Positions 4,590 to 21,305 of a stretch of 64,000 nt of DNA are shown one piece after another. The position numbers and the translations under genes were made by a program. A model generated the notes under the pieces. That model saw only the letters and a program-made list of their open reading frames with translations. It did no database searches and was not told the DNA's origin. The stretch comes from Monosiga brevicollis MX1 (taxonomy: Eukaryota > Opisthokonta > Choanoflagellata > Craspedida > Salpingoecidae), in the NCBI RefSeq assembly GCF_000002865.3, contig NW_001865070.1, forward strand, positions 194,012 to 258,011. The letters are read 5' to 3'. Each line of letters starts with the position of its first letter. Position 1 is the stretch's first letter.

Positions 4590-13230
<8,641 letters not shown>

Positions 13231-17844: not shown

Positions 17845-18033
17845 TTTGCTCTCATTATTGACTCGTGACTATTGACTATTGACTATTGAATTGTGCTATT
17901 GATCGGGCTGTGCAACAAAATGAGTGCGGGTCAATCGGGTAATGTGCATTGACATGTGCATATATGACTCTTGGCAGGGTGTTCGTCGTGTTTGTTGTCA
18001 TAAATTGCCTTGACGGTGCTCTCAATTCACATG

Positions 18034-18075
<42 letters not shown>
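17845..18075. other. Short convergent intergenic region with repeats
   Basis: Only 231 bp separate the stops of the IQ gene (+) and the epimerase fusion (-). It contains a short run of TTGACTA-like repeats at 17868-17890 and a (CA)n tract at 18037-18072 that ends at the epimerase stop. The two 3' UTRs probably overlap. Confidence 0.6.
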
Positions 18076-18076
<1 letters not shown>

Positions 18077-21000
18077 TACCACAGGGTCTCAAGACGAGTG
18101 CTACTATACCAGACCGAGAATGCCGTCACGAAGAAGCAGACGTTGCGAACAACGGTGCGCTTGAGGTCATCGCTGAAAAAGGTCGGATTTTTGCCCACAA
18201 ACCAGTCAAAACGACGAAACAGTAGGTGGGGGTCGCGACGCAAAAAATGACCGACAACACGACCCATTTCACTGCAGTTGCGTGTGATTGTTGCAGGGAC
18301 CAATGCCCGAACACGGGGCCAGACGCCAGGCACCATATCATGATACAATCCGCGGTCAAAGGACCATGGAAAGCCAAAAGCAAAGCAAACAGCACTGAGC
18401 AACTCGCCACCCACCAATCCACCACCCACGGCCAGGGCGCCGCGCAACATCGTGCTTGTCCCAGGGAACGGTGCCAGGTCTCGAACAAGTGACATGCTTT
18501 CAGGCAGCCACTGTAGCATGCCAAGGCAGATTGCGGAGGTGGAAAGAAGCACCAGCCACTCGGAGGGGTTAGGAGCCATCCACCAACAGTGCTGGGGCCA
18601 GAGTGCAATCAATGCGCCGTCTCCACGCGCCCAGCCGAAGAAGCGATCAAATCGAGGATGCCCATCATTCCACCAAGGATGCGTGGCCTTGGCCTTGGGC
18701 ACCGATAGCAAATCAGCACCGCACCACATGAGACAATAGTCAATATCTTCGCCACCGCCAGTCTTGGGGAACAAGTCGCGAAAGCGCGCAGTTGGTACGC
18801 GTTTGCACGCCATGTTGGCGGTAACGGCCCAAGGCATGGTTTGCATGTACGTGGCCGCATCCCAGAAGTAAGTCACGCCGGCAAGACGAATGCCCAAGCA
18901 GCGGATGGACTTTGTGGCTGGAAAACAGGTCGGACCAACAAAGCCTGTTTGCTCAGGATGCTCCAAAAAAGCGCGGCAGTAGGCCTCGAGCAGCCCTGCT
19001 GACACCTGAACATCGTCATCCAAAAATATAATGTAGTCGGCCGATGACTCCTGCAGACCTCGATTGCGAGCGGCGGCCGCCCCCGTGTTCACGGGTTGCG
19101 CACGGATGCGGTAGCGCCAGTCATGCCCAAACTTGGCTTCAAGCGCCTCGAGCTCACGTTGAATCTTTTCACGAGGTTGATCAGCGATGAGGACAAAGCC
19201 CACGTCTATCTTCTTGGCCAGCTCCGGGTCGCGAATGTGCTGAGTCAGCAGTGGTACCAAAAACTGGGGATCGACGCGAAAGCTGGCCACCACAATATCC
19301 ACCAGAACGCGAGGTTGGCGATCCTCACTCGAGACACCCTGTGCCTCCAACCAGGAAAGAACGCGCTGCCGGCCCTCTGTCAAAGGGGCATCAGTCCAGT
19401 CGCCACTACGTGTCTTGACATAGCGGGCGTCATCGGATCCACCAATGTCGTTGCTGAGCCGTGCGTCAGCCAGCATCTCGCACGCTTGCCAAGGCCGATA
19501 GAGCTGGAAGAGATAAGGGTCACCGTCCTGGTTGATGAAAAAGTCGGGCAAGATCTCGCCCCCAAAAATCTCCATGTGGGTACGGCTAACGACGGGGAAT
19601 GTGGGAAAGCCTGGGAAGCTCACATCATCAAAGGCCACACAGCCAAACCCGAGGGGCAAGTTCGTGTCACGGGCCATGTCCTCAAACTTGTTCACAATGG
19701 CCGTTACCCAGCCGGGGGTGAGGATCCGAACGTCATCGCCCAAGAGTAAGAAGTGAGTCGCACCGAGATCGTAGGCTTGACGAGCCAGGGCCGTCCAGTA
19801 GTGACAGATGGCACCCGGGGCGTATTTGGAGAGGGACTGCACAACGACAACACCCTCCATTGGAAGCACCTCATTCAAGCGCCGGCACAGACGCTCACGA
19901 CCATCGCGATGCAACCCAACTTCCGCATCATCGTCGTCAAGACCCAAAATGATCATGATGTGCTTTGCATGTGGATCTCCGGCCAACGTGCGGCACAAGT
20001 GCATGACCCACGTTTCAATGCGGGCCCAGAACTCGCGTGGCTCGGCGCCACGAGAGGTGATGGGAAGCAAGATGGCAAACTTGGTGTGGCTGTCAGTGGC
20101 CTCGTGACGCTGTGAGGTAGTCCAGACTTTGAGCAGTGTGGCCTCTTGATCTGTGGCTGCCTGCGCCAACTGGCTGGCCAGTTGTTCATCCATCCAGTTG
20201 GCGGTAGCTTGGAGTCCATCTTGAAGAGCGACACTGGGCCTCCAGTCCAGCAGCTTTTGGGCCCGAGCCCCGTCACAGCTCCGACCACGGACGCCCTGTG
20301 GGCCAGCGACATCAAAGACCAGCTCGACGTTGCTCTCGATGCCACGAAGCGACAAGCAGAGGTTTGCCAGACCTGCGACGCTAATGACCTCGGACGAGCC
20401 AACGTTGACAATCGTGGGGTCGTTGGGCCTCTCTTGGGCGTATTGTCCCAACTTCAAAAGGGCCTGCACGCAATCACTGACGTAGAGGTAGGTGCGAGTT
20501 TGCTGGCCATCGCCCCACAACTCCAAGGGCAACGGCAGTGCTGGGTTGGGGGAATCCTTGAGCTGGCGCCACAGCGCCCATGATTTGCGCAGCAGCGCGG
20601 CCGGCGCTTTTTCGCGACCACCTTGAAAGGTACCAAAAGGCCCGTACACGTTGTGAAGACGTGCGATTCCCAAGCGCGAGATGCAAGCCTTGAGAATCTC
20701 TTCGCCGCGTAGCTTTTCTCGGCCGTATTCGTCTTGGGGTTGAGCTGGATAGGCCTGGTCTTCCTGAAGGCAGATGGCCTCGGGGCTGGCCTGCAAGGTC
20801 TCAGGATAGACGCACGCAGAGGACGTATAAACAACGGTGCACTCTGGCATGTGGTGTGCGATGCCGGCCAGATTTGTGGTCATCTTTCCGTTATGCAGAG
20901 CAATTGCGGCGTCGTTTTCTTGATCCCCAATGAACCCCATGCCACCTAGAGCAGTCAGATTGATAGCACGGTAACACAAACCAAGACAGTGCAGATGAGA

Positions 21001-21305
21001 TGCCGGTCATGCCGAGGGACGAAGGCAACCAATGAAAACACGAACACACCCATGTCGGCGCCTAGGTGGAAGATAAACTTGGGTTGAATCTGCTTGATCT
21101 TTTCGCGCAGGGCCGATTCGTCGGTGGCATCAAGCAGATGAACCGCGACACCCTGGGCGGCCTGATCGCGAAAGGCAGATCGTTGAATATCAATGCACTC
21201 AACATGAGCCCCGAGCTCGGCTAGCTCGGCACAGAGGTGGCCGCCGATGAACCCAGCGCCACCAATGACCAAAACCACCTCATCTTTATAGGTAGAAAAA
21301 CCCAT
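18076..21305 (-). CDS. GDP-mannose 3,5-epimerase fused to two GT-A glycosyltransferase domains
   Basis: Two exons, 21305-21050 and 20945-18076, encode 1041 residues. Residues 1 to about 345 are a short-chain dehydrogenase/epimerase with the NAD motif GGAGFIGG (about 15-21), ADMGGMGFI, SSACVYPE, catalytic YGREK (Tyr159/Lys163), PFGTFQGGREKAPAA, ELWGDGQQTR and GPQGVRGRS. These are hallmarks of GDP-mannose 3,5-epimerase, which makes GDP-L-galactose/GDP-L-gulose. The next domain (about 370-610) has a GT-A-like fold signature with LLLGDDVRI. The third (about 620-860) is GT2-like: DIVVASFRV, NTGAAAARNRG, IIFLDDDVQ (metal-binding DxD) and GGGEDIDYC (catalytic acid). Two or more hydrophobic segments follow (LVLLSTSAICLGMLQW; GALAVGGGLVGGELL), suggesting membrane attachment at the C-terminus. 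The 2.87-kb second exon runs unbroken across all domains, so this is not two adjacent genes. Coupled sugar making and transfer is inference. Confidence 0.88.

Follow-up and report, generated by a model that had tools for sequence, protein, structure and literature searches.

A two-exon gene of Monosiga brevicollis encoding a GDP-mannose 3,5-epimerase domain fused to a GT2-type glycosyltransferase domain and a probable membrane tail

The window analyzed here is the whole 64,000-nucleotide stretch of the Monosiga brevicollis MX1 contig. Its minus strand carries, at 21305-18076, a two-exon gene with a coding sequence of 3126 nt, which translates to 1041 amino acids with 0 internal stops. The window also carries genes of the Cep192, SH2 and CAP-Gly types. 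On the minus strand at 5518-10652 of the window, long ORFs encode Cep192 and ASH/HYDIN-type Ig domains; they probably constitute a centrosomal Cep192/SPD-2 gene. The assembly amounts to 39.47 Mb in 57 contigs. An algal origin had been raised in the original prediction, and for the genome as a whole it was not supported: there are 114 SH2 matches in the genome compared with 0 in 14 control prokaryotes, and these matches, together with the Cep192, SH2 and CAP-Gly genes, point to a choanoflagellate, which the GLDH gene described below also fits. The features of the two-exon gene are as follows.

21050..21305 (256 nt), minus strand: exon 1, with the start codon and the N-terminal NAD-binding part of the GDP-mannose 3,5-epimerase (GME) domain
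20946..21049 (104 nt), minus strand: intron, GT..AG, with CTGAC a little 5' of the acceptor
18076..20945 (2870 nt), minus strand: exon 2, an open frame with the remaining GME domain, the middle domain, the GT2 domain, the tail and the stop codon
20155..21305 (intron included), minus strand: GME domain, residues 1-349, assigned by phmmer, active-site residues and a tree
19315..20082, minus strand: middle domain, residues 374-629, with an LGDDV motif; a GT-A fold is only suspected
18592..19314, minus strand: GT2 glycosyltransferase domain, residues 630-870, with LDDDV, GGGEDID and HPWW, assigned by Pfam and a bacterial homologue
18079..18591, minus strand: C-terminal tail, residues 871-1041, with probable membrane segments near 882-900 and 921-944

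The exon layout agrees with the original prediction, which had proposed one continuous 2.87-kb exon and a short first exon; these were found at 20945-18076 and 21305-21050 with no internal stop, and the motifs quoted there (GGAGFIGG, YGREK, GGREKAPAA, ELWGDGQQTR, LGDD, LDDDV and GGGEDID) are all present in the chain. The start codon is the first in-frame ATG past the upstream stop, and the Pfam Epimerase match begins at residue 11, in the part encoded by exon 1. Within the intron, the codon score is negative (-0.18), and the CTGAC near the acceptor would suit a branch point. Splicing rebuilds the motif ADMGGMGF across the exon junction, and the identical stretch is found in plant GME.

A run of 955 codons without stops is not chance. 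With 6 other long ORFs from the window as the training set, codon preference ranked the annotated frame first of six in 17 of the 17 60-codon segments, which cover both domain junctions and leave the final 21 residues unscored. The segment 841-900 has a negative codon score, yet the annotated frame is still the top one there. From the single open frame and the coding bias over the junctions, it follows that the fusion is present in the genome sequence and is not a product of joining separate frames; at the sequence level it is real and well supported. As a single assembly is the source of the fusion, an artefact of assembly or annotation has to be considered, but we regard this as very improbable given the continuous frame with its codon bias and given that no other genomic copy of either part was found that could have been mis-joined. 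In a search of its own genome, the glycosyltransferase part matched nowhere else, and no further match to the GME part exceeded 35 bits, the next best being at 34.7 bits with 30% identity. Downstream of the gene, a 38-base run of TG dinucleotides lies at 18035-18072 of the window, a few bases past the stop codon, and a short tandem repeat of TATTGAC (7 nt/14 nt) lies at 17856-17902.

When residues 1-349 were compared with all PDB sequences by phmmer, the GMEs 8sg0 and 2c59 came first with 191 and 190 bits; the next family reached 69 bits, which is 122 bits below the top GME. All 8 of the 8 active-site residues that were checked are retained, namely S128, C130, Y159, K163, N184, K198, R236 and R307, whose counterparts in the Arabidopsis enzyme are S143, C145, Y174, K178, N203, K217, R243 and R306 (PMC8787198). 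Among these, S128, Y159 and K163 form the SDR triad with its Tyr-x3-Lys; C130, K198 and R307 form a Cys/Lys acid-base pair with an acidifying Arg, as is typical of GME; and R236 and N184 match the diphosphate-binding Arg243 and the conserved Asn203. According to PMC8787198, the base Lys and the acidifying Arg are the choice of GME versus Cys/His and Lys in GDP-fucose synthase, and Arg306 is the residue that acidifies the catalytic Cys.

For comparison, 160 GME relatives were fetched, consisting of the best 80 of 483 bacterial relatives and the best 80 of 125 from viral contigs. A quick tree of 78 rows was built from the query, 2 plant sequences, 67 of these 160 relatives and 8 other SDRs. It places the query on the GME side (70 rows including the query) against the 8 outgroup SDR rows, and the separating branch has an SH-aLRT value of 98. 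A tree of this domain had been suggested as a check of the original prediction, and the query does not fall outside the GME clade. The claim of a GME-type epimerase is thus borne out by the best PDB matches, the active-site residues and the tree placement, and the assignment of residues 1-349 by family resemblance is good.

The end branch of the query in this tree is 2.72, while the median end branch is 0.36. Because the branch is too long, the tree does not settle the position of the query among plant and bacterial GMEs, nor the evolutionary source of the domain, an algal one included. Several residues are also unusual. The query has G82 where Ala occupies 162 of the 162 compared rows. Between the catalytic Tyr and Lys it has R161, giving YGREK, compared with the usual YG[WL]EK (W in 142/162 rows, L in 10/162), which is a typical feature of the compared rows rather than a stated requirement. 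RSCDG is found where RNSDN is usual, although its S308 is also present in 15/162 rows. In view of the very long branch and of G82, RSCDG and other unusual positions near the active site, the product of the GME domain may differ, and G82, RSCDG and the long branch could reflect a change of substrate or a loss of activity. It is possible, though on the unlikely side, that divergence has given the epimerase domain a different substrate or product that suits the glycosyltransferase of its own chain; examples would be GDP-L-gulose alone, GDP-D-altrose or some other NDP-hexose. Besides the branch length and the odd residues G82, R161 and RSCDG, this explanation draws on the description of GDP-L-gulose and GDP-D-altrose as natural by-products of GME (PMC8787198); the retention of every checked active-site residue, including the counterpart of Arg306, speaks against it.

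The GT2-like domain that had been predicted was confirmed by Pfam and by stand-alone bacterial homologues. Glycos_transf_2 matches residues 669-750 with 46.2 bits (cut-off 23.3, E 6e-12). A GT2 enzyme is defined by a DXD-type motif and a conserved acidic motif on the acceptor side; when the query was aligned with two bacterial homologues, DDD, GGGED and HPWW showed no variation in any of the 3 rows. The middle and GT2 domains together were used as a query against 392 genomes of one phylum, and 16 of these gave matches at E 1e-6, every one of them within the GT2 part or just ahead of it; one is strong (E 5e-39) and the other 15 are weak (E 5e-11 to 8e-7). The strong match is a stand-alone bacterial GT2 of 366 residues (L188), with 37% identity over 228 residues, which adjoins a radical SAM gene. 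When a two-row GT2 profile was run at E 1e-15, a second phylum (395 genomes) yielded a further homologue (L202) from 1 genome and a third phylum (386 genomes) yielded none; among 14 genomes of the class to which the L188 source belongs, the profile recovered only that source. L202 adjoins a second GT2 gene and a GT9-family gene, and this neighbourhood suggests a surface-glycan cluster.

Matches elsewhere were remote. Against PDB sequences the whole glycosyltransferase part gave weak rows, the best of which has E 0.01 and spans 42 residues within the GT2 domain. No relative was found by tblastn of this part in phages, nor with the part as a single sequence among viral contigs; the two-row profile returned 4 remote matches from viral contigs with 20-25% identity. 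The stand-alone bacterial homologues are rare, with 30-37% identity to the query. We consider the assignment of residues 630-870 to GT2, made by homology, to be good. The bacterial GT2 proteins with tails (L188:932-2029 and L202:1210-2304) form a rare and patchily distributed family, with strong matches in 1/392 and 1/395 genomes of two phyla.

On the other hand, the original prediction had counted two glycosyltransferases, and only the one at residues 630-1041 was established. The middle domain, taken there as the other, has no family match, and its relation to GT2 in a profile comparison is weak. It has no match in Pfam, PHROGs, phages or plasmids, and its comparison with the PDB gave chance-level rows only (E 0.64-1.5). 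With NCBIfam on the whole chain, none of the matches listed (25 of 79 families) falls in the middle domain. In hhalign, against a profile of 118 GT2 sequences and the query's own GT2, the LGDDV of the middle domain falls on the LDDDV of GT2 with a score of 19.8, the best of 28 queries, while the best unrelated control reached 17.7. Of the 80 bacterial GME loci, 35 had their genomes searched for the domain; 7 of the 35 gave a row at E <= 1, and the best row (E 0.005 over 42 residues) has an internal stop. At E 0.001 the domain was found in 0 of 386 genomes of one phylum, a scan run with no positive control. Four viral-contig matches to the DNA pattern of the middle-domain motif GFPTFPV+[V/I/M] were judged by tblastn and translation to be chance. 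Any assignment of the middle domain to the glycosyltransferases is guesswork.

The predicted C-terminal hydrophobic segments stood in part. The usual hydropathy threshold for a transmembrane segment is 1.6, and the two peaks of the tail, at 1.48 and 1.69, are marginal; a soluble Rossmann strand of the epimerase reaches 1.75. The tails of the homologous bacterial proteins are hydrophobic as well, with peaks of 1.62-2.6 at about the matching place, and the similarity of the GT2 domain to these proteins extends, with gaps, into the tail. A membrane tail is likely, not certain: it is marginal by hydropathy alone and finds its main support in the homologous bacterial tails.

We then considered how unusual the fusion is. 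None of the 160 fetched GME ORFs from bacteria and viral contigs, a few of them perhaps cut by contig ends, has space for a C-terminal transferase. The longest is at most 549 aa, and the 18 ORFs of more than 400 aa have at most 25 residues beyond the match. In the flanks of the 160 loci, the glycosyltransferase part gave weak GT2-like rows only (best E 9e-5). As a separate observation, GME-like epimerases (L096-L175) are common on contigs labelled as viral, with IMG/VR giving 125 relatives, and some of them lie near GT2-like genes. No such fusion is described in the largely open-access literature searched for a GME-glycosyltransferase fusion or for GME in choanoflagellates, and the word 'epimerase' is absent from the main text of a paper on horizontal gene transfer in M. 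brevicollis (PMC4046809), whose gene list is in the supplement. An epimerase and a bacterial-type GT2 on one chain are a new architecture made from known parts, absent from the prokaryotic and viral-contig relatives examined.

This single occurrence, with no fusion among the 160 fetched relatives, would also be consistent with a chain that is translated but uncoupled, whether as a neutral accident of gene acquisition, through separate transcripts, or by the chain being cut apart. We consider this unlikely, since the frame is open throughout with coding bias through both linkers, and the signature residues of GME and of GT2 are intact.

The role of the gene can also be considered from the other genes of the genome. 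A gene for GLDH is present as one open frame (L015:628-2439; TIGR01676, 510.6 bits compared with the cut-off of 458.25). GLDH catalyzes the final step of vitamin C synthesis of the plant type, and in this genome it occurs alongside a GME-type domain. The GLDH of M. brevicollis and Salpingoeca rosetta has been reported (Wheeler 2015, PMC4396506), and that of M. brevicollis is reported in PMC4046809 as well. As choanoflagellates of this clade have GLDH and the fusion gene is the sole clear GME match in the genome, the locus bears on the choice between an ascorbate and a glycan role. If the GME domain served mainly for vitamin C, GDP-L-galactose would be released and converted to L-galactono-1,4-lactone for GLDH, and the transferase would have a separate function. 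The presence of GLDH and the lack of another clear GME match in the genome both favour this explanation; nevertheless, we rate it as rather improbable, because GDP-L-galactose phosphorylase (VTC2) was found in Viridiplantae only, according to PMC4396506, and because ascorbate leaves the fusion to a glycosyltransferase unexplained.

The explanation we lean towards, by a modest degree, is a cytosol-facing membrane enzyme that supplies its own GT2 domain with GDP-L-galactose or GDP-L-gulose for a surface glycan. GDP-mannose is made in the cytosol, and the catalytic domains of GT2 synthases usually face the cytosol at the membrane. In the present chain there is no N-terminal hydrophobic leader ahead of the Rossmann strand, and the GT2 domain precedes the tail. 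Given the cytosolic GDP-mannose, the lack of a leader and this order of domains, the simplest arrangement would have all catalytic domains facing the cytosol at the membrane. The N-terminal domain would oxidize GDP-D-mannose at C4 by its bound NAD+, epimerize it at C5 and C3 through the Cys130-Lys198 pair, and re-reduce it to GDP-L-galactose and/or GDP-L-gulose. The GT2 domain, held by the tail at the cytosolic face of the membrane, would use this product or a second donor, and its acceptor would be a surface glycan, either lipid-linked or still growing. As for the middle domain, it may act as another GT-A transferase or serve to bind the acceptor. The parts that we infer are the product, the membrane orientation, the glycan target, and that the GT2 domain draws on what the GME domain of the same chain makes.

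A more specific form of this idea is a self-supplying glycan synthase, in which one membrane-bound chain makes GDP-L-galactose (or the L-gulose compound) and adds this sugar, together with a second one chosen by the middle domain, to a surface polysaccharide of the choanoflagellate. We put this forward tentatively, as a possibility that may well turn out wrong. If true, it would allow a rare L-hexose glycan to be built without a free donor pool and without a Golgi transporter. For the cytosol-facing enzyme in general, the gene would represent a natural case of a donor-making and a donor-using enzyme on a single chain, and a glycan with L-galactose or L-gulose would be predicted in a close relative of animals.

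When compared with known systems, the epimerase part belongs to the same sequence family as plant GME (PDB 2c59/2c54 and 8sg0), with the 8 active-site residues in common and 37-39% identity. It differs in the ~690 extra residues of the chain, in a 2-residue insert after GMGFI, and in the unusual G82, R161 and RSCDG. Bacterial GMEs, of which the enzyme of Methylacidiphilum fumariolicum is a characterized example (PMC8787198), have the same active-site residues, and the best 80 of 483 bacterial relatives have 35-40% identity to the query. The stand-alone bacterial GT2 proteins with a hydrophobic tail (L188 and L202) resemble the query over the entire GT2 domain and part of the tail, including DDD, GGGED and HPWW, but have neither a fused epimerase nor a middle domain. 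Exostosins with tandem transferases presumably have no donor-making domain. They illustrate that more than one sugar-transfer module is possible on one chain, although their modules are of the GT47/GT64 families (PMC9178029). The plant UDP-rhamnose synthase RHM is a eukaryotic fusion of successive nucleotide-sugar steps (PMC3220709); it joins two nucleotide-sugar steps, whereas the present gene joins an epimerase with a transferase.
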